This document shows positions 39,968 through 53,563 of a stretch of 64,000 bases of DNA, piece by piece; positions within the stretch are counted from its first letter, which is position 1; every line of letters starts with the position of its first letter. This DNA is from Candidatus Ozemibacter sibiricus (GTDB lineage Bacteria; Muiribacteriota; Ozemobacteria; Ozemobacterales; Ozemobacteraceae), in the NCBI GenBank assembly GCA_003327425.1, contig QOQW01000011.1, positions 62,001 through 126,000 of the forward strand, in the 5' to 3' direction. The notes below the pieces were generated by a model. The model worked only from the letters and a program-made list of their open reading frames with translations, searched no databases and was not told where the DNA came from. The position numbers were made by a program, and so were the translations under genes.

Positions 39968-40891
39968 ATGAACTGCCAGGATGTCCGTGCCGAACTCGAT
40001 CGTCTCGAAACCGCCCGGGCCATCTCCCAGGAGGTCGCCGACCACGCCCGGGGCTGTCCCGCCTGCCAGGCCTTGCTGCAGGCTGATCGCCGGCTCGAAG
40101 CGAGCCTGCTCGTTCTCGAGCAGGCCACCCCGCAGGTTCGGCTGACGCCTCGCATCATGGCGGCCGTCGCCCGCGAAGCGTCCACCGCTGCCGCCGCCCC
40201 AGCCCCCCTTTCCTTCCTCGATCGGCTCGTCGGGGCCATCTTTCCCGTCGCCGCCGGCAGGCGATGGGTGGCGGTCGGAGTGGCGCTCCTGCTGCTGGCG
40301 ATCGTGGCCCATCAGACCCTGGTCCGCTCCCCTTCGTCCATTCCCACCCCCCAATGGGAAATGACGCTCCTGAGCTTCGACGCCGAGCGCCTTCCCCGCG
40401 AGTGGGCCGCCCGCCCGGCCGGCATTCTGCTGCCCTGGGGCGAACCGGTCGATCTCGGCCCCGGCAGCCTCTGCTCGCTGCAATGGCCCGGCCGCGCCAC
40501 CGCCGCCATCCGCGATGGACGCTTCGTCCCGGCCGCCGCGGGCTTCCGCCTCGAACGCGGGCGGGCCACCGTCCAGGTCGTGAAGACGTCGCCGGCCACG
40601 CCCTTCACCGTCGCCACCCCCTTCGCCGAGGTGGCCGTGGTGGGCACCCGGTTCACCCTCGATCTGTCGGCCGACCGCCTGCACGTGTCGGTCGCCCAGG
40701 GCCGGGTCCGGGTCGTTCACCCCACTGGAACCCGGGATCTCAACCCCGGCGAGTCGCTCGCCGTCGGGGCGACCGGGTTCGTGCCCGTAGAGCTGCCCCC
40801 GCTCGCGCCCGGCGAGCCGGCTTCGTCGGTGTCGCCGGCGGTCGCTGGCTCGATCAGTTCAACGCTCGAGGAGGAAAGTCCCGGCCGTTGA
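39968..40891 (+). CDS. FecR-like anti-sigma factor with zinc-finger N-terminus
   Basis: A 307-residue membrane protein. The N-terminus has the zinc anti-sigma motif His26-x3-Cys30-x2-Cys33 (ADHARGCPACQAL); a membrane helix lies at about 98-118 (WVAVGVALLLLAIVAHQTL). The extracytoplasmic part carries a FecR-like domain: GFRLERGRATVQVVK, TPFTVATPFAEVAVVGTRFTL and VSVAQGRVRVVHPTGTRDLNPGE. The gene for its ECF sigma follows 18 bases later. ATG 39968 is chosen for GGGAGG upstream; a start at 39920 is in frame. FecR domains normally sense an outer-membrane receptor, but none is adjacent. Confidence 0.9.
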   Translation: MNCQDVRAELDRLETARAISQEVADHARGCPACQALLQADRRLEASLLVLEQATPQVRLTPRIMAAVAREASTAAAAPAPLSFLDRLVGAIFPVAAGRRWVAVGVALLLLAIVAHQTLVRSPSSIPTPQWEMTLLSFDAERLPREWAARPAGILLPWGEPVDLGPGSLCSLQWPGRATAAIRDGRFVPAAAGFRLERGRATVQVVKTSPATPFTVATPFAEVAVVGTRFTLDLSADRLHVSVAQGRVRVVHPTGTRDLNPGESLAVGATGFVPVELPPLAPGEPASSVSPAVAGSISSTLEEESPGR

Positions 40892-40909
40892 GCGGCCGAC
40901 TCGCCACGA

Positions 40910-41494
40910 ATGCCGATCCCTCATGGTGACCCTCCCGATCGTGACCTGGTGGCCGCGACCCGCGCCGGTCGCCTCGCCGCGTTCGAAACCCTCGTCGATC
41001 GCTACCAGGGCCTGGTCTTTCGCTTCCTGTTCCATTTCATGGGCCATCGGGGCGATGCCGAAGACATCACCCAGGAAACCTTCCTGCAGTTGTTCCGCAA
41101 GCTCGATCGCTACGATCCTGCCCAGTCGCTCAAAGCCTGGCTTCTGACCATGGCTCGGCACCTGGCCATCTCCCATCACCGGCGCCAGGCCCCAGCCCCC
41201 CTCGATCCGGCCGTCATCGGGGAGCTGGTGCGCGACGTGGTGAGCGGGCCCGAGGCCGAGGTGCTCTCCCGCGATGAAGTTCGCATCGTCCACGAGGCCT
41301 TGCACCAGCTTCCCGACGAGTATCGCGAGGTGCTGGTGATGCGCTACCTCCTCGACATGCCCTTGCAGAAAGTGGCCGAAGTGCTGAACATCCCCGAGGG
41401 AACCGCCAAGTCCCGGGTGTTCCATGCCCGGGGCCTCCTTCGCGACGCCCTCCTCCGTCAGGAGAACCGCCAGGCCCAGATGTCCGGGCTGTGA
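40910..41494 (+). CDS. ECF-type RNA polymerase sigma factor
   Basis: A 194-residue sigma factor with region 2 (AAFETLVDRYQGLVFRFLFHFMGHRGDAEDITQETF) and region 4 (LPDEYREVLVMRYLLDMPLQKVAEVL, recognition helix GTAKSRVFHARGLL). Placed directly downstream of its presumed FecR-like anti-sigma, it would be released when that protein senses its signal. Order is anti-sigma then sigma, the reverse of the pair at 13140. Only 86 bases without features separate it from the next, convergent gene. Confidence 0.93.
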   Translation: MPIPHGDPPDRDLVAATRAGRLAAFETLVDRYQGLVFRFLFHFMGHRGDAEDITQETFLQLFRKLDRYDPAQSLKAWLLTMARHLAISHHRRQAPAPLDPAVIGELVRDVVSGPEAEVLSRDEVRIVHEALHQLPDEYREVLVMRYLLDMPLQKVAEVLNIPEGTAKSRVFHARGLLRDALLRQENRQAQMSGL

Positions 41495-44235: not shown

Positions 44236-45438
44236 TCAGTCGCTGGCCGGCTGATGATGCAGGAGGGTTTCGTCGAGGTCGGTGACGGCCGAGGCGGGGG
44301 AGGGCTCGGGCCCGGGGCCGGTCGCGGGCTCAGCCAGGCCGTGGGCGGCGGTGGCGGCGGTCGCCGACGCCTGCACCGGGGCTGCCCCGGCCGGGGCAAC
44401 CCGGACGGCGTCAGGCGCTTCGAGAGCCGCCGAAGCGACCGAAGGCGGGGAGGCGATCTGGTAGCGCAGGCCGGGATCGAGGCAAGGGAGCCAGGGAGCC
44501 GCGGCAGCGGTGGCCAGCGGCTCGAGACGCACCTGGGTGCCCTCCAGGCGGAGGGCGGTGAGCGAGGGCACGGTCAGCGGCCGGCCGGATGGTTGGGTGG
44601 CGATCTCCAGGGCACCGCTGAAGACGCATCCCTGGAGGCCGTCGGGAGTGATGGCCAAGCCCGCCTGGGCCTCATGCGCGTGGATGGTGACATCCCCGTG
44701 GCGGATGGTCAGCGGCGCTTGGTCGGGGGGCGGTGGGGAGGCCCGCAGCCAGGCTGCTCCCTGATTGAGCCGCAAGGCCCCGGCCTCGATGGTGCCGGCC
44801 GATTCAGGCAGCAGCACGAGGGTGGCGAAGGGGGCCGCCGCGTCTTCGTGCGCCATGGCGGGCGGACGTCGGCCGATGCAGGCCAGTTCGAGCCGGCCAT
44901 CAGGGCCGGTCTGGAGTCGGGTGCCGTCTGGCACGGCCTCGGCCACCCTGACCCCTGCCGCCTGCCAGGATCCTTCGGCGCGGGCCAGGATGAGCGTGGG
45001 CGGGGCGATGACCGGGGCGGCGGTCGGCGCGGTCGGCGTCGCCACCGGCGGCGTGGGGTGGGTCGGTTCCCCTCCTGTGGGGAGGGCGCCCGGGGCCCGG
45101 CCGCTCGGTCTGGCCGGTTCCTGGCTGCTCAACAGGGCCAGCGCTCCCCCGATGGCCAGGCCGATCACCAGGACGAAGGGCAGCCAGGGGCGAGCGGTGG
45201 GGGACTCGGCGGTCGGGACCGGCAGCCGGCATACTCGTTCCATGATCGGGGCGGTCAGGTCGGGGCCCGGGCGCAGGGTCAGGCCGCGCAAGGCCTGGTG
45301 GGCTTCGCGGGCCGACTCGAGGGCGGCCCGGCACTCGGGGCATGACCGGCAGTGGGCTTCCAGGTCGGCCTGGTCGGCCGGCGACAAGGTGCCGTCGAGG
45401 TAGTCGAGCAGTCGGGCTTCGTTTTCGTGCTGGCTCAT
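44236..45438 (-). CDS. Anti-sigma factor with zinc finger and FecR-like periplasmic region
   Basis: A 400-residue protein. The zinc anti-sigma motif is His29-x3-Cys33-x2-Cys36 (EAHCRSCPECRAAL). One membrane helix (WLPFVLVIGLAIGGALALL) lies near residue 90-105. A Pro/Thr/Ala-rich linker precedes a beta-rich periplasmic region with a FecR-like pattern (AGVRVAEAVPDGTRLQTGPDGRLELACIG). The C-terminus is Ala-rich. The sigma gene on the same strand ends 42 bases before its start, so the pair is co-transcribed after the prepilin genes. The preceding 219-base gap (44017-44235) has no recognised feature. Confidence 0.88.
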   Translation of the reverse strand: MSQHENEARLLDYLDGTLSPADQADLEAHCRSCPECRAALESAREAHQALRGLTLRPGPDLTAPIMERVCRLPVPTAESPTARPWLPFVLVIGLAIGGALALLSSQEPARPSGRAPGALPTGGEPTHPTPPVATPTAPTAAPVIAPPTLILARAEGSWQAAGVRVAEAVPDGTRLQTGPDGRLELACIGRRPPAMAHEDAAAPFATLVLLPESAGTIEAGALRLNQGAAWLRASPPPPDQAPLTIRHGDVTIHAHEAQAGLAITPDGLQGCVFSGALEIATQPSGRPLTVPSLTALRLEGTQVRLEPLATAAAAPWLPCLDPGLRYQIASPPSVASAALEAPDAVRVAPAGAAPVQASATAATAAHGLAEPATGPGPEPSPASAVTDLDETLLHHQPASD

Positions 45439-45480
45439 GGGGTCATCCGTATCTTCCCCCGGGGTGGGGGGAAAGTTACA

Positions 45481-46188
45481 TCATGACGTCGGTTTTCCAG
45501 AGTCGCCGCCAGGAGTGGGAAGATCGGGGCCGGCCTGGCGCCGCAAGATGTCGCCCAGCGCTTTCTTGCCGCGGAACAATCGGATCTTCACCAAATGCAG
45601 AGGGATATCCAGGATCTCAGCGATCTGGGCATAGCTGCGATCGAAGAAATAGAACAGCCAGATGACCAGTTTCTGGTCGTCGGGAAGGCTTTTGAGAGCG
45701 CTGATGACCATGTCTTGGCGTTCGCGGGCGAGCAGGGTCTCTTCGGGATCGACGAACGGGTGGATGGCCTCTTCAGGAGCCCGACGCGCACCGGCCGGCC
45801 GCCGCACCGCCTTGCAACAGTGATGGGTGGCGATCTGCAGGATCCAGTTGGTGAAGGAGCGGGTCGGATCATACCGACCCAGGCTCTGATAGGTGGCCAG
45901 GAAGATCTCCTGCACCACATCCTCGGCTGCCGCAACGCTGCGGGTGTAGAACAGGGCCATGCTGAAGATCTTGCCCTGATAGCGACGGATGATCTCGGCG
46001 AATGCGTCGGGGTGGCCGGCCATCACCTGCCGTGCCAGTTCTTCTGGTGAAGGAACGGCCCTGGTCGCAGCGGGCGAGATGGGGGCGGGGGGCGAGACTG
46101 GGGATGGGGGGGAGGGTGCGACCGCGGACGGGGAGGAGGGTGCGGCCGAGGGGGCTGGGCGTTCGGCGAACGGGCCGCGCGGAGTCAC
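45481..46188 (-). CDS. ECF-type sigma factor coupled to prepilin genes
   Basis: A 235-residue sigma factor. An unusual Pro/Ala/Ser-rich N-terminal region of about 50 residues precedes region 2 (EELARQVMAGHPDAFAEIIRRYQGKIFSMAL, with AAEDVVQEIFL) and region 4 (LPDDQKLVIWLFYFFDRSYAQIAEIL, HLVKIRLFRGKKAL). The frame is open further upstream, but GTG 46188 is preferred because it overlaps the stop of the prepilin gene (GTGA). Translation is thus coupled to the prepilins, suggesting the sigma is made with, and may control, pilus or envelope genes. Confidence 0.87.
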   Translation of the reverse strand: MTPRGPFAERPAPSAAPSSPSAVAPSPPSPVSPPAPISPAATRAVPSPEELARQVMAGHPDAFAEIIRRYQGKIFSMALFYTRSVAAAEDVVQEIFLATYQSLGRYDPTRSFTNWILQIATHHCCKAVRRPAGARRAPEEAIHPFVDPEETLLARERQDMVISALKSLPDDQKLVIWLFYFFDRSYAQIAEILDIPLHLVKIRLFRGKKALGDILRRQAGPDLPTPGGDSGKPTS

Positions 46189-46751
46189 GGGGTCTGCCAC
46201 CCCAGGCTCTGGCTGTTGCTGGCGTGATTGCGGCAAAGGATGAACCGTTCCAGGGCGAATTCCTCGCTGCCGGTCGGGTAGGTTCCCGTTTTCAAGAGCA
46301 CTTTGAACCCGATCCGCTGGTCTTCCAGGTCGAGCCGGGTGAACGAGCAATCGAGCACTTTCAGTCCGCGACAGAAGGCATGCACCTCGGGCGCGGCCCC
46401 GCCTCCGGGGTCGCGGGTCCGCTTGATGCCCTGGGGATCGCCGGCTCGTTCATAGATGATGGCGCTGGTGGCCACCCGCCCGTCCTGGTCTTCGAGGATG
46501 ACGAATTTGACCGATGACTCGGGCACGCCAGGGGCGACGAAGCTGACGTCCACGGCCCGCTGCAGGTCCTCCTCGATCTGCGACATGAGCAGCGAAGTGG
46601 CCTGGACGTTGGTCAGATGCGCCGATCCCTTGGTCGAGGTTCGCATGCCTGAAGACAGCATCCGGCTCGCCGCCAACAGTACGATGGCGCCAAGCAGGAC
46701 GCTGACCGCGATCTCGGCCAGGGTCAATCCGCGTCGGGGGCGTGGCGACAT
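46185..46751 (-). CDS. Prepilin-like protein (type IV pilin/pseudopilin family)
   Basis: A 188-residue protein with a class III prepilin signal. The basic leader ends RRG, cleavage would precede LTLAEIAVSVLLGAIVLLAA, and Glu5 of the mature helix is present. The globular part has no recognised domain but two cysteines (AFCRG, LDCSF). It is assembled or processed by a prepilin peptidase encoded elsewhere. ATG 46751 overlaps the stop of the preceding prepilin gene (ATGA), and its own stop overlaps the sigma factor start. Confidence 0.85.
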   Translation of the reverse strand: MSPRPRRGLTLAEIAVSVLLGAIVLLAASRMLSSGMRTSTKGSAHLTNVQATSLLMSQIEEDLQRAVDVSFVAPGVPESSVKFVILEDQDGRVATSAIIYERAGDPQGIKRTRDPGGGAAPEVHAFCRGLKVLDCSFTRLDLEDQRIGFKVLLKTGTYPTGSEEFALERFILCRNHASNSQSLGWQTP

Positions 46752-47200
46752 CACTTCGCCCTGGTCAGCAGTCCGGTCAGCCGTACGCTCCGGGTCTGCT
46801 CGTCGTTGGGTTTCCAGCTCACCTCGGCGACCAGGACTTTGTACTGGTAGGGCCAGGCGGCCGCGGACAATGGGGGGACCCGCACGTGCAGGACCCGAGT
46901 GAAGCGCGGATCGACGGGCAGGGCAATGGCTCCTCCGCCCAACGCCCGAAGTTCGAGGGGGGTGATCGTTCGGTTTTCGCCCACCGCGACCTGGGGGTCG
47001 TCGAACCCGCGGGCCTGGGCGAATTCCAGCATCTCCTGGGCGTAGGCATAGGCCAGCACTTCGTCACGGCTCTGGACGGTGCCGGTCGAACTGCGCGAGA
47101 ACATGAAAAAGATCGGGGTCATGCTGGCGCCGATGATCAGTACGGCGATCATCACCTCCACGATGGTGAAGGCGGCGGGGCGGCCAGGGATCGTTCTCAT
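46751..47200 (-). CDS. Prepilin-like protein (minor pilin/pseudopilin, GspI/PilV type)
   Basis: A 149-residue protein with the prepilin signature AFTIVEVMIAVLIIGASMTPIF; cleavage would leave Phe1 with Glu5. The N-terminal helix is followed by a short C-terminal domain ending in strands (YKVLVAEVSWKP). It resembles GspI/PilV-type minor pilins with the helix plus small beta domain. It starts ten bases after the stop of the large pilus-type protein at 47211 and overlaps the next prepilin by four bases. Confidence 0.86.
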   Translation of the reverse strand: MRTIPGRPAAFTIVEVMIAVLIIGASMTPIFFMFSRSSTGTVQSRDEVLAYAYAQEMLEFAQARGFDDPQVAVGENRTITPLELRALGGGAIALPVDPRFTRVLHVRVPPLSAAAWPYQYKVLVAEVSWKPNDEQTRSVRLTGLLTRAK

Positions 47201-47210
47201 GGGCGGTCTC

Positions 47211-49421
47211 TCATTTCAAGAACCAGGGAGTGGGATTGACGCTGCAGCTCAGGAGCGGCGCCTCGGAATCGGGCTCGGCGACGGCTCCTGGCAAGACCCC
47301 CAGGGCCGTGTCGTAGACCAGGTCGACCCCTTGCTGGACGCTGGCCAGATCGAAGCGACTCATCGCCACCGCCCCGGTGATCCGGCCGCGGCCGCCCGCC
47401 CCGACCCGCACGCGTCCTTTGTGCGCCACCAGGCCGGCCTGGACCTTCTGGTTGGTATCGACGATGATGTCGCCGTCCAGGGTGACCAGCTGGAGATGGG
47501 CTTCGGGGCCGATCGTACTGATTTCATGCCCGATCATGATATTGCCTTTTTTCAGGACGATGCCGCCATTCGACTGGACCACCACCTTCTGGGTCAGCCG
47601 CAGGTCGCCCGCATCATCGACGTAGATCCAGCCGTTGAGGTCGAGGGTGTTGCCCTGGGCCAGCCCTCGGGCTTTCAGGCAATCCAGGATCGTGCGGTTC
47701 TCGGCGGTGGGATTGATCACCCAGGCGGTACGGTCTCCCGGGATGCCGAGCGATTGCAGCAGGGCGCGCATCGATTTGAGATCGGGGGCGGAGGTCAAGG
47801 GGCGGAGCGCGTCGGGAATCGCATGGACCAAGGTCGTATTCGGCGGGTTGGCCATCAACGCTTTCAGAGGGCCCTCGGGCAGGTCGACCCAGGGGCGAGG
47901 GGCCAGATTGTTGGCTCGGATCATGGCCAGACTGCGATTATACGGAGTGCGATCCCAGTTGCTGGCCAGGACTTCATTGTAGATGGTCAGATCTTGTGGC
48001 GAGCCGGTCAATGGCAGGTTGACCCCGGCCTGGGTCAGCTCGGGGAAGAGCGAAGGAAGGTGGAACTGGTTGAAGGTGGCGATATTGTCTCGCTCGCCAG
48101 CATGGGCGGGACTGATGAACTCTTGCCAGTTGGTCAGGTCGTGGGCCGGCTGATGGGTGAGGAACGTTGGTCGGAAATGGTACGGACTGGAAGGATTGGT
48201 GTGTTTGATCGCTCGGGTCCGAATATATGACCGATAGACCTCCCCAAGCATGATGGTCGGCGAGGGTTGGCGGTCGGTGCCGTACGGGCGGAGCGCCGAA
48301 CTTTTCCGCAGATATGGAGCCCAGCGGGACTCACGGATGGTGTCATACCAATCGCGAGACCCACCCCCCGAGGTTTCGACGGTGACTCCTTGGTCCCAAT
48401 TCAATAGGTAGGTGTCCTGGAGCTTGCGAAAGACATAGAGCCCATCGCCGCGGCCAGAGTTGAAGAAGTGAAAACCCTCAGCGAATTCGCCGAAGGGGTT
48501 GCTGCCGCGAGCGGCATTCAGATACAACCGGCCGCCCCCGAGATAGACCAGGCCGCGGCGGCTGGTGATCCAATCGTTGAGATGGTCGGGGCGAGCGTCG
48601 CCTTCGCATCCGTTCTGAAGCACCCAGGGCAGGCCATCGGGCGGCGAGGTCCGGTTGCCGGTGGCGGTGTTGGAAACCACATTGAGGCGGAAGGAGGCAT
48701 CGGCATCGGTCACATCTGAGGACTCGCGGGCATCCTCGACATACAGGGTGAATTTCGACAGGATCGGAACCAGCGCCGCCGTGACCTTGACCTGGGTGAC
48801 GAAATGGAATTCTTCGCGGAGTTCGAGCGTCGTTCCCCCGGTTTTCCTGAAGATCGTGGCGATGGCCAGATGGATCAAGCCACGTTTCTCGCGGGTGTAG
48901 GCCGAATCGCGCAGGGGCCGGAAATCGGAGCCGCGGCAGGAATACTGGATCTCATAGGAGAAGGCCCCCAGATGACTGAGGGGTTCGACCATCTCGCGAA
49001 GAATGGGGGACAGATCGGTGGCCCCTTGATCGAGACGAACGAACGTATCGGCCGCGGCGGGCAGGTCGCCGAGGCTGCTCAGCGGTTTCTTGAGATAGCG
49101 GGCGAGTTTGCTGGCAGGGTCGCGGACGACCTCGCGTTGGATCTTCTGGATGGCCAGCGTGGCCAGGGCGAAGGCCAGCGAGGTGCTGATCCGTTGTTGG
49201 CCCTGGCGGTGGGTGAGCCGGTTCTGCATGACCATGAACTGGAAGAACCAGCCGGCGAGCAGAAGGAGGACGAAAAGAATGCCGCCGGCGATCAGAATGA
49301 CCGACCCCCGGCGGGGCGGTGCGCACCGCGCGGAAGGACCTGGAACGGTGTTCACGGTCGGCCGGGACCCCGCAGGGAAAAGGGGCGGATGGCTAGCGGG
49401 GTGGACGGATGGCTCTGGCAT
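47211..49421 (-). CDS. Large pilus-associated exported protein (PilX-like N-terminus, bactofilin-like C-terminal strands)
   Basis: A 736-residue protein. After a Pro-rich stretch, basic PPRRGSVILIAGGILFVLLLLAGW forms one membrane helix in the style of PilX/GspK minor pilins. A long region of mixed structure follows. The last 130 residues contain repeated short beta units (VVVQSNGGIVLKKGNIMIG, VTLDGDIIVDTNQKVQAG, GRGRITGAVAMS) reminiscent of bactofilin-like or right-handed beta-solenoid stretches. No catalytic motif is seen. It precedes two prepilins in one operon and may be the tip or anchor subunit. The start ATG 49421 lacks a convincing ribosome binding site; GTG near residue 24 is an alternative. 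Confidence 0.72.
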   Translation of the reverse strand: MPEPSVHPASHPPLFPAGSRPTVNTVPGPSARCAPPRRGSVILIAGGILFVLLLLAGWFFQFMVMQNRLTHRQGQQRISTSLAFALATLAIQKIQREVVRDPASKLARYLKKPLSSLGDLPAAADTFVRLDQGATDLSPILREMVEPLSHLGAFSYEIQYSCRGSDFRPLRDSAYTREKRGLIHLAIATIFRKTGGTTLELREEFHFVTQVKVTAALVPILSKFTLYVEDARESSDVTDADASFRLNVVSNTATGNRTSPPDGLPWVLQNGCEGDARPDHLNDWITSRRGLVYLGGGRLYLNAARGSNPFGEFAEGFHFFNSGRGDGLYVFRKLQDTYLLNWDQGVTVETSGGGSRDWYDTIRESRWAPYLRKSSALRPYGTDRQPSPTIMLGEVYRSYIRTRAIKHTNPSSPYHFRPTFLTHQPAHDLTNWQEFISPAHAGERDNIATFNQFHLPSLFPELTQAGVNLPLTGSPQDLTIYNEVLASNWDRTPYNRSLAMIRANNLAPRPWVDLPEGPLKALMANPPNTTLVHAIPDALRPLTSAPDLKSMRALLQSLGIPGDRTAWVINPTAENRTILDCLKARGLAQGNTLDLNGWIYVDDAGDLRLTQKVVVQSNGGIVLKKGNIMIGHEISTIGPEAHLQLVTLDGDIIVDTNQKVQAGLVAHKGRVRVGAGGRGRITGAVAMSRFDLASVQQGVDLVYDTALGVLPGAVAEPDSEAPLLSCSVNPTPWFLK

Positions 49422-49464
49422 CAAAGGTGACTGGCCACTGCGTGGTGGTCAGGGATGGCGACCG

Positions 49465-49857
49465 TCAATAGTCATACCTGGTCAGAGGTTCAATTTCTTT
49501 GGGTTGGATTTCCGGGCGGGTCGGATCCGTTGATAGCAGGGTCGGATAGGGGTGGTTGGAGGCATCCTGGTCATCGACCTCGGCGTAGTCGAGGACCTCG
49601 ATATAGCCGCTGTACACCCATTTCCCCTGGTAGGGGCCGGTATTCACCTGGTACCAGCTGCCGCTCACCGCGAGAATGGTCACCTCATCGCCGTTGGCGA
49701 TGGTGCCCAGGACGGTATAGTTCATCCCTGGGCCGGTGCGGACGTTGAGGGCGGTACAGGTGACCCGGCCGCGAGAAGGGATGCGGGCAGCCCACACGGT
49801 CGTCGCGGTCAGCAGGGGAACAAGGACCAGGAGCAGGAATACCGAACGTCTGGTCAT
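49465..49857 (-). CDS. Exported bacterial SH3-domain protein
   Basis: A 130-residue protein with a signal peptide (SVFLLLVLVPLLTATTVWA). One bacterial SH3 (SH3b) domain follows: TCTALNVRTGPGMNYTVLGTIANGDEVTIL and WYQVNTGPYQGKWVYSGYIEV. SH3b domains bind peptidoglycan or protein ligands in the envelope. The C-terminal 35 residues are charged and unstructured. GAGGAGG lies before the ATG. It heads the pilus-type gene cluster, 43 bases before the large protein gene, so a cell-wall-binding role for the assembly is plausible. Confidence 0.85.
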   Translation of the reverse strand: MTRRSVFLLLVLVPLLTATTVWAARIPSRGRVTCTALNVRTGPGMNYTVLGTIANGDEVTILAVSGSWYQVNTGPYQGKWVYSGYIEVLDYAEVDDQDASNHPYPTLLSTDPTRPEIQPKEIEPLTRYDY

Positions 49858-49917
49858 GGGCGTATCCTCCTCTTCCCGATGTTACCCGATCGGGTGGGGA
49901 AAGTTACGACCCCCGGG

Positions 49918-50919
49918 TCAGGGCAGGGCTTCCCGGAGCATCTGGGCGGCGTCTTCCGGGGGGGTGGGGTTGATGTAGAACCCTGATCCCCATTCGAAGC
50001 CGGCCACTTTGGTCAGCTTGGGAATGATCTCGACGTGCCAGTGGAAGAAATCGCGATAGGAATCGGAGCAGGGCGAGGTGTGGAGGATGAAGTTGTAGGG
50101 GATGTCGGGCAGCAGGCGGTCCATACGTTTGAGAGCGGCCTGCAGCGCCTGGGCGAACCCCTGCACATGGTCGTTGTCGATGGTCTCGAAGAACGGTTGA
50201 TGGACTTTGGGGATGATCAGCATTTCAAAGGGGAAGCGGGAAGCGAACGGGCAGAAGACCAGGAACAGGTTGTCCTGCAGGACGATGCGGCTGGGTTCCT
50301 GGACCTCCTGGCGGATGATATCGCAATAGATGCAGCGGTCGTGGTAGTGGAAATACTCCCGGGCGCCGTCGATCTCCTCTTCGATACGTTTCGGGATGAT
50401 CGGCGTAGCGACGATGTGCGAGTGCGAGTGGGCGAAATTCGACACCCCTCGCCCGCTGTTCTTCACCACCAGGAAATGCTTGTAGCGTGGATTCTTCTTG
50501 ATTTCGAGCAAGCGCTGCTTGTAGGCCCAGATGACCTCTCGCACCTGATCGAGGGTGGCCGATTGCAGGGTCTGGTGGTGGGAGGGGGTTTCGACCACCA
50601 CCTCATGGACGCCGATCGAGTTCATGGCGTCGAACATTCCGATGCCGACCCGCCCGGCGTCGCCGGTCGGGATGAGGATCGGGTTCTGATCAGGAATCAC
50701 CCTCACCCACCAGCCGGGTTGATCGGGCAGGGTCCCGTTGCGTCGGAAGGCCATGGTTTCGTTGGGGGTCAACCGCTCGTTGCCCTCGCAGAAGGGGCAA
50801 GGTCCTGAATCGTCGACCGGCCCGCCCCGTTCGGGCTTGAAATCGTGGGGTCGCTTGCCGCGCTCGGGCGAAATGATCACCCATTGCTTGAGGACCGGAT
50901 CCTTGCGGAGTTGGGGCAT
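49918..50919 (-). CDS. GalT-family nucleotidylyltransferase with altered active site
   Basis: A 333-residue paralogue of galactose-1-phosphate uridylyltransferase. The Cys41-x2-Cys44 zinc pair (CPFCEGN) and a second metal region are kept. The active-site histidine triad reads HSHSH (164-168) instead of HPHxQ: both nucleophilic-region histidines remain, but Pro165 is Ser and Gln168 is His. Gln168 stabilises the uridylyl intermediate in classical GalT, so the donor or acceptor specificity may differ. Its gene follows the canonical copy by 34 bases on the same strand, so they are co-transcribed. Confidence 0.85.
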   Translation of the reverse strand: MPQLRKDPVLKQWVIISPERGKRPHDFKPERGGPVDDSGPCPFCEGNERLTPNETMAFRRNGTLPDQPGWWVRVIPDQNPILIPTGDAGRVGIGMFDAMNSIGVHEVVVETPSHHQTLQSATLDQVREVIWAYKQRLLEIKKNPRYKHFLVVKNSGRGVSNFAHSHSHIVATPIIPKRIEEEIDGAREYFHYHDRCIYCDIIRQEVQEPSRIVLQDNLFLVFCPFASRFPFEMLIIPKVHQPFFETIDNDHVQGFAQALQAALKRMDRLLPDIPYNFILHTSPCSDSYRDFFHWHVEIIPKLTKVAGFEWGSGFYINPTPPEDAAQMLREALP

Positions 50920-50953
50920 GCGCTACCTCGTGGGACTCGGGCCGGACGGCGGA

Positions 50954-51955
50954 TCAGCCGGCCCCCGACTGGATGAGGTGCCGAGCGGCATCCTCGGGAG
51001 GAACGGGATTGACGTAGAAGCCGGACCCCCACTCGAACCCGGCGACCTTGGTCAAGCGGGGCATGATCTCCAGGTGCCAGTGGTAGTAGTCCGTGCAGAG
51101 TTCGTCGCAGGGCGAGGTGTGGATGATGTAGTTGAACGGCGGATCGCCGAGCGTCTTGATCAGCCGGCGCAGGGTGCCGTGCAGAGCGTTGGCGAAGGCT
51201 TCCTGTTCGGGTTCTTCGATGTCCCCGAACGACGCTTTGTGATCTTTGGGGGCGATCCAGGTCTCGAAGGGGAAGCGAGAGGCGAAGGGCGCGAAGGCCA
51301 CGAAGCTCTCGTTCTCATAGATGACCCGGGTGCCGGAGCTGAGTTCCTGCCGGATGATGTCGCAGAAGACGCAGCGCTCTTTGTAGTAGAAATACTGTTT
51401 GGCGCCCTCGACTTCCTCCATGACCCGCTTGGGGATGATCGGGGTCGCGATGAGCTGGGAATGAGGGTGGTCGAGACTGGCGCCGGCCGCCGCGCCGCTG
51501 TTCTTGAAAATGAGGATGTACCGGAACCGGCGATCGCGCTTCAGATCGCGATAGCGGTCGCAGTAGGCATTGACGATCTTGAGCACCTGATCGCGGGAGA
51601 AGGTGGCGAAGCCGCCATGGTGGTCGGGCGTTTCGATGATGACCTCGTGGGCCCCGACCCCGTTCATCATGTCGTACAGACCGATGCCGGTGCGGTCGAG
51701 ATCGCCCTCGATCTGGAGCGCCGGATACCGGTTGGGCACCACCCGCACCCGCCATCCGGGCTGGTTCGGCAGGGTATTGGGCTCGCGGTACGACATGACC
51801 TCGGGCGGCGTCTGTCCCTCGTGCCCGCTGCAGAACGGGCAGTCGTTGCCCTCGAGCTGTTTGCTCAACGTCGGAAAATCTCGAGGGCCCTTGGGGTTTT
51901 CGAGGATGGTGATCACCCATCGTTTGGTGACCGGATCTTTGCGCAGCTGGGGCAT
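50954..51955 (-). CDS. galT: Galactose-1-phosphate uridylyltransferase
   Basis: A 333-residue GalT of the HIT superfamily, which exchanges UMP between UDP-glucose and galactose-1-phosphate in the Leloir pathway. Cys39-x2-Cys42 (CPFCSGH) forms part of the zinc site. The active site is canonical HPHSQ (163-167), in which the second histidine is the covalent nucleophile. C-terminal FNYIIHTSPC and HWHLEIMPRL match the family. ATG 51955 has GAGGAGGACCC upstream; the frame is open much further upstream but without support. A promoter lies at 51990-52019. No galK or galE is adjacent, so the sugar route cannot be confirmed here. Confidence 0.92.
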   Translation of the reverse strand: MPQLRKDPVTKRWVITILENPKGPRDFPTLSKQLEGNDCPFCSGHEGQTPPEVMSYREPNTLPNQPGWRVRVVPNRYPALQIEGDLDRTGIGLYDMMNGVGAHEVIIETPDHHGGFATFSRDQVLKIVNAYCDRYRDLKRDRRFRYILIFKNSGAAAGASLDHPHSQLIATPIIPKRVMEEVEGAKQYFYYKERCVFCDIIRQELSSGTRVIYENESFVAFAPFASRFPFETWIAPKDHKASFGDIEEPEQEAFANALHGTLRRLIKTLGDPPFNYIIHTSPCDELCTDYYHWHLEIMPRLTKVAGFEWGSGFYVNPVPPEDAARHLIQSGAG

Positions 51956-53149: not shown

Positions 53150-53330
53150 CTACTCCTCGTCTTCGTCCTCGTCTTCGTCTTCTTCGTCGTCGAAGTCGTC
53201 TTCGTCTTCGTCGTCGAAGTCCTCCTCATCTTCGTCGTCGAAGTCGTCTTCGTCTTCGTCGTCGAAGTCGTCCTCATCTTCGTCGTCGAAGTCATCTTCC
53301 TCGTCGAGGTCTTCGTCGTCTTCATCCTCG
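53150..53330. repeat. Tandem repeat array inside the acidic protein gene
   Basis: Imperfect units of about 27 bases built from GTCTTCGTC/GTCGAAGTC runs encode repeated DDFDDEDED. The array may vary in length between strains. Confidence 0.7.
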
Positions 53331-53563
53331 TCGAGGTCTTCATCCTCGAGGTCGTCGTAGTCTTCGTCTTCCTCGTCTTCGTCGAGGTCTTCGTCCTCGT
53401 CGTAGCTGTCGAACTCCTCGTCCAGGTCTTCCTCGTCGTCCTCGTCCTCTTCCTCGTCTTCCAGGTCTTCGTCGTTTTCTTCGGTATCTTCGTCCACGTC
53501 CTCCCATTTTTTCTTGGGGGACAGGAGTTCGGTTTCGTCGATCAGGTTCTTCCGGGTGGGCAT
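53150..53563 (-). CDS. Extremely acidic low-complexity protein
   Basis: A 137-residue protein. The first 18 residues (PTRKNLIDETELLSPKKKW) are ordinary; almost all of the rest is Asp and Glu with a few Leu, Phe and Tyr, including a repeated DDFDDEDED unit encoded by imperfect tandem repeats at 53150-53330. It has AAAGGAG before ATG 53563 and a promoter at 53603-53631, so it looks expressed rather than accidental. Comparable acidic tails act as histone- or nucleic-acid-mimicking chaperones or metal buffers, but no specific function can be assigned. It is divergent from ffh. Confidence 0.75.
   Translation of the reverse strand: MPTRKNLIDETELLSPKKKWEDVDEDTEENDEDLEDEEEDEDDEEDLDEEFDSYDEDEDLDEDEEDEDYDDLEDEDLDEDEDDEDLDEEDDFDDEDEDDFDDEDEDDFDDEDEEDFDDEDEDDFDDEEDEDEDEDEE

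Follow-up and report, generated by a model that had tools for sequence, protein, structure and literature searches.

In the flagellar FlgM/FliA system, an anti-sigma factor is coupled to what an envelope machine passes. For the extracytoplasmic function (ECF) sigma factors, PMC8103513 gives as early hallmarks a -10 element with CGT and a co-transcribed anti-sigma factor, describes autoregulation in most instances, and reports that the definition was later narrowed to the sigma2/sigma4 domains. The FecI/FecR and PupI/PupR systems pair an ECF sigma factor with a membrane anti-sigma that has a periplasmic FecR-type beta domain, and contact with another envelope protein is expected to drive signalling (PMC7186176). 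At the tip of the Thermus thermophilus ComZ/PilA2 competence pilus, a large beta-solenoid minor pilin stands beside small ones (PMC6561018). A locus that invites comparison with these systems lies in a 64,000-nucleotide stretch of the Candidatus Ozemibacter sibiricus genome (GenBank assembly GCA_003327425.1, contig QOQW01000011.1, positions 62,001 to 126,000), hereafter the window, to which coordinates refer unless another genome is named. It encodes an ECF sigma and its anti-sigma beside a minor-pilin cassette, and the anti-sigma ends in a short tag that is also present at the mature N-terminus of exported proteins. The reading we favour, with a little more confidence than doubt, is an autoregulated ECF sigma/anti-sigma switch governing tag-addressed exported proteins, mostly cell-wall enzymes, together with the minor-pilin cassette. 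Searches of open-licence PMC papers listed no description of a tag-copying anti-sigma.

The sigma gene (45481-46188, minus strand) encodes sigma2 and sigma4 domains only (Sigma70_r2, E 4.5e-15; Sigma70_r4_2, E 8.6e-14; TIGR02937, 88.7 bits with a cut-off of 42.9), and by this domain content its product is an ECF (group IV) member; the best-scoring NCBIfam model is SigW, under its cut-off. The anti-sigma gene (44236-45438, minus strand) follows after a gap of 42 bases, and the organization is that of class I (ZAS) anti-sigma factors, with an N-terminal zinc-binding domain (zf-HC2, 29 bits with a cut-off of 22.2), one adjoining transmembrane segment (residues 86-104) and a gene beside that of the ECF sigma. 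The structural model of the anti-sigma (mean predicted local distance difference test score, pLDDT, 66.7) begins with a zinc-finger helical domain and the transmembrane helix (86-104), continues with a beta domain that spans roughly residues 148-307 and is confident for the most part, and ends with disorder to residue 387 and a short helix at 388-394 that corresponds to the tag; beyond residue 320 everything apart from this helix is modelled as disordered, at low confidence. The N-terminus matches RsiW (Z 6.0) and RslA (Z 5.4) by fold and also by sequence, and the beta domain matches that of PupR (6ovk) both by fold (Z 15.1, root-mean-square deviation 2.9, 133 residues) and by profile (6ovk_R, E 0.0037), so that the model places a FecR-type beta subdomain next to the membrane. 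The window anti-sigma has no Pfam FecR match, and a paralogue in a genome of the same genus (G001:C125) has one. The tag is most likely outside the cytoplasm, on the same side as the mature tags of the exported proteins, because the modelled architecture puts the C-terminus beyond both the transmembrane helix and the beta domain.

The pair belongs to the ECF/class I anti-sigma kind, and what is unusual about it is its sensor end. Unlike PupR, the anti-sigma has an RsiW/RslA-type zinc-finger domain at its N-terminus, and where PupR carries a C-terminal STN-type subdomain (PMC7186176), this region is modelled, at low confidence, as a disordered linker followed by a short tag resembling that of the cargo. 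The locus further differs from Fec and Pup in lying beside pilins and in carrying an autoregulation-like motif. We do not class it as a Fec/Pup system, although it may work like cell-surface signalling, because an STN-type subdomain is not demonstrable and no TonB-dependent transducer was noticed among the neighbours, not all of which were profile-scanned. With its RsiW- and RslA-like anti-sigma N-terminus the locus also resembles the SigW/RsiW and SigL/RslA pairs, from which it is set apart by an extracytoplasmic end that copies the tag of the regulon and by a -10 region other than CGT. In contrast to FlgM, the anti-sigma is membrane-bound, displays a cargo tag and is not known as an exported protein.

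Promoter-like motifs lie at two places, GTAAC-N16-GGTAACAT upstream of the operon that begins with an SH3 gene (49879-49907, minus strand) and GTAAC-N16-GGGAAGAT upstream of the anti-sigma gene (45451-45479, minus strand), the latter within the gap that separates it from sigma. The window genome (G000) is a 5.68 Mb draft in 58 contigs and is 97.9% complete; it was compared with two genomes of the same genus (G001 and G002) and, locus by locus, with further relatives carrying G numbers. TGTAAC or CGTAAC is found before the SH3 gene and before the anti-sigma gene in 7/7 syntenic loci, and TGTAAC also before the anti-sigma gene of G005; within the genus it is followed after 15-16 bases by GGNAARAT or GGTAACAT. 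The -35 box of the motif contains the AAC of ECF promoters, and the sigma probably recognizes TGTAAC-N15/16-GGNAARAT promoters, that of its own operon included. An initial description of this DNA, the first-pass annotation, had proposed looking for an ECF-type motif before the SH3 gene and elsewhere, and it is found in both.

The motif was then sought as GTAACN{15,16}GGNAASAT in G000, G001 and G002, with the reversed pattern as control and with the tag playing no part in the search. There are 16 matches, compared with four for the control; six are the SH3 and anti-sigma sites, two per genome, and the other 10/10 precede genes for exported tagged proteins, 55-97 bases before the start codon. 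These proteins begin with a signal-peptide-like leader (signal peptides were assessed by eye) followed by D[LM]xxxLxxHxP, with G for D in one of the ten. After the tag come a linker rich in Pro, Ala and Thr, in most cases an amphipathic stretch, and then the catalytic domain. The domains are SLT (two), M23 with SH3 (three), glucosaminidase, M15, C39, metallophosphoesterase and a CHAP/NlpC-like domain (under Pfam cut-offs), with peptidoglycan-hydrolase domains in 7/10. A reverse test used a hidden Markov model (HMM) of the cargo N-termini, which finds tagged genes independently of the promoter, and the motif was sought within 160 nucleotides of each. The motif search had already yielded ten of the 17 tagged genes in the genus; an unbiased count is therefore given by the newly found genes, 4/7 of which have the motif. 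As background, 6/368 called genes at 23 loci in the three genomes have the motif, these being the three SH3 and three anti-sigma genes. A combined promoter-plus-tag pattern run on 24 genomes has nine matches in the genus (control, none); outside it there are four, with eight for the reversed control, which makes the pattern uninformative there, and no tagged exported gene was seen at the four loci. The single tagged gene of G010, counted separately as its contig ends inside pilW, has the motif (1/1). Proteins at the tagged position of cassettes that have no adjacent sigma gene lack it (0/9); of these nine rows, G012 has a related sigma elsewhere, G023 offers only 89 bases of upstream sequence, and the N-termini in G006, G015 and G018 are diverged.

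The same tag ends the anti-sigma itself. In the window it reads DLDETLLHHQP (44248-44280, minus strand) and lies three residues before the anti-sigma stop, the full C-terminus being DLDETLLHHQPASD; the five other complete syntenic anti-sigmas end in DLDETLLHHQPSGD, GLDDTLFRHQPN, DLRDCLIEHQPGGR, DMLGILDDHQPTE and DMMNILNGHQPSSIASELEN, so that LxxHQP closes 6/6. This count leaves out the G004 anti-sigma, which is cut by a contig end, and the non-syntenic anti-sigmas of G005, G012 and G001:C125 are treated apart. The syntenic proteins are 17-63% identical to that of the window, and their alignment has no invariant column from residue 275 to the tag, in which L392, H395, Q396 and P397 are invariant. 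A tag-like C-terminus is present in 9/685 distinct called proteins from 53 loci; six are the syntenic anti-sigmas, and the others are two orthologous C-termini, which from their position we take to be RimM, and one G012 prepilin. When a weight matrix built exclusively from 27 cargo tags is applied to 1131 C-termini from loci of at least 9 kb except L009 (a G002 locus), the G002, window and G001 anti-sigmas rank first (17.1, 10.5 and 9.1; the next scores 5.6), and the anti-sigmas of G008, G007 and G014, scored separately, reach 12.0-22.3. Its training set included two rows (G017 and G023) of the sigma-less cassette type that it later scored. The HMM built from cargo alone matches the G002 anti-sigma C-terminus (E 0.017, or 0.077 with a larger alignment). 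From the third-from-last position the tag reads mostly HDP in the 27 cargo tags and HQP in all six anti-sigmas. Chance resemblance was considered and is ruled out by the matrix ranking, the C-terminus count and the genome-wide pattern of a second tag described next; these comparisons establish, at the level of sequence, a tag common to the exported proteins and the anti-sigma.

The strongest argument that the copying has meaning comes from this second tag, since here a different anti-sigma and its neighbour share a different sequence. A separate PilX-PilV-PilW-sigma set is present at G001:C125, where the anti-sigma gene is convergent and its product (zf-HC2 plus FecR) ends TPKELLRTIPP (RTPKELLRTIPPGPR); immediately upstream of this anti-sigma gene is that of an exported C39 peptidase, which begins NPKELLKPRAP (ANPKELLKPRAP) after its leader (tag-2 pair, [NT]PKELL[KR], locus L114, 7561-9626). 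The back-translated pattern has two matches in the 7.1 Mb G001 genome, precisely the two sites of the pair, and three in seven other genomes, one in a short frame and two without a suitable frame. A shared promoter motif was sought at C125, where one TGTAAC lies upstream of the operon and nothing firm at the cargo. There are then two anti-sigma/cargo tag pairs with different sequences, D[LM]xxxLxxHxP and [NT]PKELL[KR], and more candidate tags beside other cassettes; a tentative generalization, which we think rather doubtful as it stands, would be that throughout the family each of the paralogous minor-pilin cassettes exports or docks enzymes of its own through a cassette-specific terminal tag, that its anti-sigma displays this tag as a decoy, and that transcription follows the load of the cassette.

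Exported proteins beside other pilin cassettes (L301, G005:C110, 8271-10493; L299, G001:C19, 2421-3629) have short acidic starts after the leader, QSLDEML..., QSLEEMV... and QDLETFL..., which are perhaps further tags. At L112 (G012) and L113 (G005), the FecR proteins encoded after the anti-sigma share an SP-initial C-terminal motif with the neighbouring anti-sigma, and a prepilin of these operons ends in ATM[IV]ANHHP plus seven residues. The genes after the anti-sigma in these non-syntenic operons were considered as cargo with a shared C-terminus and set aside, as they code for FecR proteins.

The operon itself is compact. Upstream of sigma lie genes for an exported SH3-domain protein (49465-49857; Pfam SH3_3, E 2.5e-13, supported by synteny), a large PilX/GspK/ComZ-like minor pilin assigned from its N-terminus and solenoid (47211-49424, with TTG at 49424 or GTG at 49355 as start), a PilV-like prepilin (46751-47200) and a PilW-like prepilin (46185-46751, from ATG at 46751, with GTG at 46754 also possible); all four, the sigma and the anti-sigma are on the minus strand. 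Gene starts were assigned with a simple caller based on codon usage, which truncated some of them. The sigma GTG start (46186-46188) shares four bases, GTGA, with the PilW TGA stop (46185-46187), and all sigma cassettes read (9/9) show such an overlap, as GTGA or ATGA, namely those of the window, G002, G001 (three), G004, G007, G008 and G014. The SH3-PilX-PilV-PilW-sigma order is kept in G001, G002, G004, G007, G008 and G014, all of the same family (by tblastn), with the anti-sigma after sigma in all six and its G004 copy truncated as noted; the best sigma segment is 81% identical to the homologue in G002, a Candidatus Ozemobacteraceae MAG and the closest named relative, and the nearest non-syntenic sigmas, in G005 and G012 (44-45% identity), stand beside other prepilins. 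The family belongs to the Riflebacteria.

The first-pass annotation had described the SH3, large pilin, prepilin and sigma genes as reading in one direction with the sigma start inside the prepilin stop, which the coordinates bear out, and the neighbourhood it suggested examining is conserved; its range (46185-49857) ends short of the sigma and anti-sigma genes, and it did not have the anti-sigma's own motif, the dispersed set of tagged exported proteins or the tag at the anti-sigma C-terminus. Its proposal that the sigma is made in fixed proportion to the pilins is not supported, as the overlap gives a potential for coupling and not a stoichiometry; we dropped it as the main point because overlaps as such are common and more is explained by the tag and the dispersed regulon. 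A Pro/Ser-rich N-terminal extension of the sigma, also reported there, is real in the window, G002 and G001 and absent from G004, G007 and G014, and with no conservation beyond the genus was rejected as a functional feature. The suggested feedback between surface assembly and transcription survives in altered form: the link of an export and pilin cassette to transcription has become more concrete, and the sensed variable would be cargo rather than pilin dosage.

This architecture could also belong to an ordinary ECF module that answers envelope stress by inducing cell-wall enzymes and minor pilins; translational coupling would then keep the sigma matched to the pilins, and the tag would have no regulatory role. 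The conserved motif and overlap fit such a module, as do the autoregulation of most ECF sigmas and the co-transcribed anti-sigma that was an early hallmark of the group (PMC8103513). Such a module accounts neither for the second matched tag pair nor for LxxHQP being conserved when the periplasmic tail that it closes is otherwise poorly conserved, and we consider this reading quite improbable.

Beyond the genus, the tag is tied to the pilin cassette by neighbourhood. Among 39 genomes of the phylum, matches to the large pilin above 100 bits and tag matches at E < 0.01 are confined to the family of the window (weaker tag matches elsewhere were left uninspected). G017, G021, G012, G009, G023 and G022 have a sigma-free cluster reading in one direction, in which genes for a tagged SH3 protein and for an exported protein of 315 residues accompany that of the large pilin; a separate SH3 protein is also encoded in G009, G023 and G022, as are PilV and PilW wherever the contig extends far enough in any of the six. 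The exported SH3 protein of these cassettes starts MNFN[ED]TLxxH, which is related to the tag; the protein that occupies this position in G006, G005, G015 and G018 has an N-terminus that has diverged further. By eye the SH3 protein has a CHAP-like C-terminus and the 315-residue protein is NHL-like, assignments we set aside as Pfam makes neither; the one 315-residue protein scanned has no Pfam assignment. In the genus of the window it is the promoter motif that links the tag to the cassette, and in some genera it is neighbourhood, the weaker of the two links.

The large protein is a predicted pilin. It has no Pfam match and its model is poor (mean pLDDT 54.9), with a beta-solenoid that resembles ComZ (6qvi, Z 9.5, 22% identity over 139 residues) and ice-binding solenoids (up to Z 10.3), so that the ComZ-like fold is a lead; a sequence search of the PDB gave one match (E 0.096), which was not used. 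Its companions are an SH3 protein and either tagged exported proteins or an ECF sigma, which distinguishes the cassette from ComZ/PilA2, and there is no evidence of DNA uptake. The prepilin methylation motif (N_methyl) of PilV falls just under the cut-off (20.0 bits, cut-off 21.2), with a weak PilV match, and that of PilW scores 20.0 bits for the window protein in Pfam and 23.1 bits, over the cut-off, in a genome scan (G000:C54:108668-108742); prepilins among the called genes were picked by regular expression. A pilus or pseudopilus is possible, since G000 has 28 T2SSE ATPase and five secretin matches over cut-off. The 72 N_methyl and 28 T2SSE matches of G000 are seemingly unusually many. Other ECF genes of this genome adjoin prepilin clusters (L144, L146, L147, L149 and L156; G000:C4, C54:57.5k, C47, C8 and C6), and 6/25 PF08281 places, that of the window included, lie within 3 kb of an N_methyl match where 1.5 are expected (P 0.003), which is suggestive only.

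Taken as a mechanism, the sigma would read the motif that lies upstream of its own SH3-PilX-PilV-PilW-sigma operon, of the anti-sigma gene and of the dispersed exported-enzyme genes. The enzymes, bearing the short, putatively helical tag right after the leader, may dock through it on a receptor, for which the pilus-tip-like assembly of SH3, PilX, PilV and PilW, or a partner of this assembly, is the most likely candidate; such a tie to the pilin cassette is suggested by a protein with a related tag that lies in the same cassette in other genera. The anti-sigma would hold the sigma at the inner membrane and display the tag on a flexible extracytoplasmic C-terminal arm past the FecR-type domain, where it could compete with cargo for the receptor and report receptor occupancy. 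A homeostatic sign is favoured, such that a free receptor would engage the arm and release the sigma, and a cargo-filled receptor would leave the sigma inhibited. We infer docking, sensing and its sign; the presence of the same tag at the anti-sigma C-terminus points to cargo, and not pilin dosage, as the sensed variable.

A shared tag requires just a common binding partner, and might serve only as a localization or scaffold signal that places the anti-sigma at the envelope site of the enzymes, their amount not being sensed. This leaves open why the regulator of the cargo should copy the tag, and do so in two cassettes with two tags, and the first tag is present on only 9/685 C-termini; we think it unlikely, though it has some chance of being right. 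The tags also lie at termini, in or beside flexible regions, as a periplasmic protease site might, in which case cleavage would mature the enzymes and start proteolysis of the anti-sigma, and protease load rather than docking would be sensed; regulated intramembrane proteolysis has been proposed for the FecR-type PupR (PMC7186176). The FecR-type domain would, however, not be lost through a cut of the last 10-20 residues alone, conservation of the tag extends over several positions rather than one bond and a helix is predicted for it (388-394, low confidence), and no protease gene was noticed beside sigma, not all neighbours having been scanned. This too we consider unlikely.

A number of observations weigh against the favoured reading. 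The -10 region, GGNAARAT, is not the ECF-typical CGT. Three of the 17 tagged genes in the genus have no motif, and two of these, orthologous to each other, are without the final P as well. The strict motif is absent from the tagged genes of G014 (0/4, two with TGTAAC and another -10), G007 (0/2) and G008 (0/1), so the motif reading in those genomes is weak, and G004 keeps the sigma cassette with no tagged cargo at E <= 0.01 (the genome is 79% complete and weaker matches were left uninspected). The tag of the sigma-free cassettes has its D replaced and keeps the final P only in G017; an 11-row HMM made without these rows gives E 0.031 for G017 and 1.6 for G023 and does not list the other four, and the two sigma-free tagged proteins scanned with Pfam have SH3_3 only and are less clearly enzymes. 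Among the anti-sigmas, the cargo-only HMM lists G002 alone of the six, the non-syntenic proteins of G005 and G012 do not have the first tag (matrix scores -13.5 and -11.0), and G001:C134 has a sigma cassette with no adjacent anti-sigma. The pilins are proposed as receptor from their neighbourhood alone, and the homeostatic sign is a guess.

If the tag-sensing switch operates as proposed, ECF signalling would gain a new kind of input, in which the anti-sigma reads the traffic of export or docking through the cargo's own tag, and enzymes that pilin-type assemblies handle would have a short address label at a terminus. The label could be used for substrate prediction and for orthogonal tag/anti-sigma pairs, and would provide a first testable function for some of the numerous minor pilins (72 N_methyl matches in G000) and ECF sigmas of an uncultured group.

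The surroundings of the cassette are partly conserved as well. Upstream in the window is a tandem galT-type pair (49918-51955, minus strand) of about 50% mutual identity, the first with GalP_UDP_transf and its _tr_C domain, and two galT homologues are found upstream of the cassette in 5/6 relatives, G008 being the exception; ffh lies farther out in G001, G002 and G004. A short protein with a very long terminal Asp/Glu run (53150-53563, minus strand) has similar counterparts near the locus in G004, G007 and G014. A second anti-sigma/ECF pair (39968-41494, plus strand), with the anti-sigma gene first (Pfam FecR, 39.5 bits), lies 3 kb from the first pair, and an ECF gene resembling that of the second pair is present near the orthologous locus in G001 and G002.

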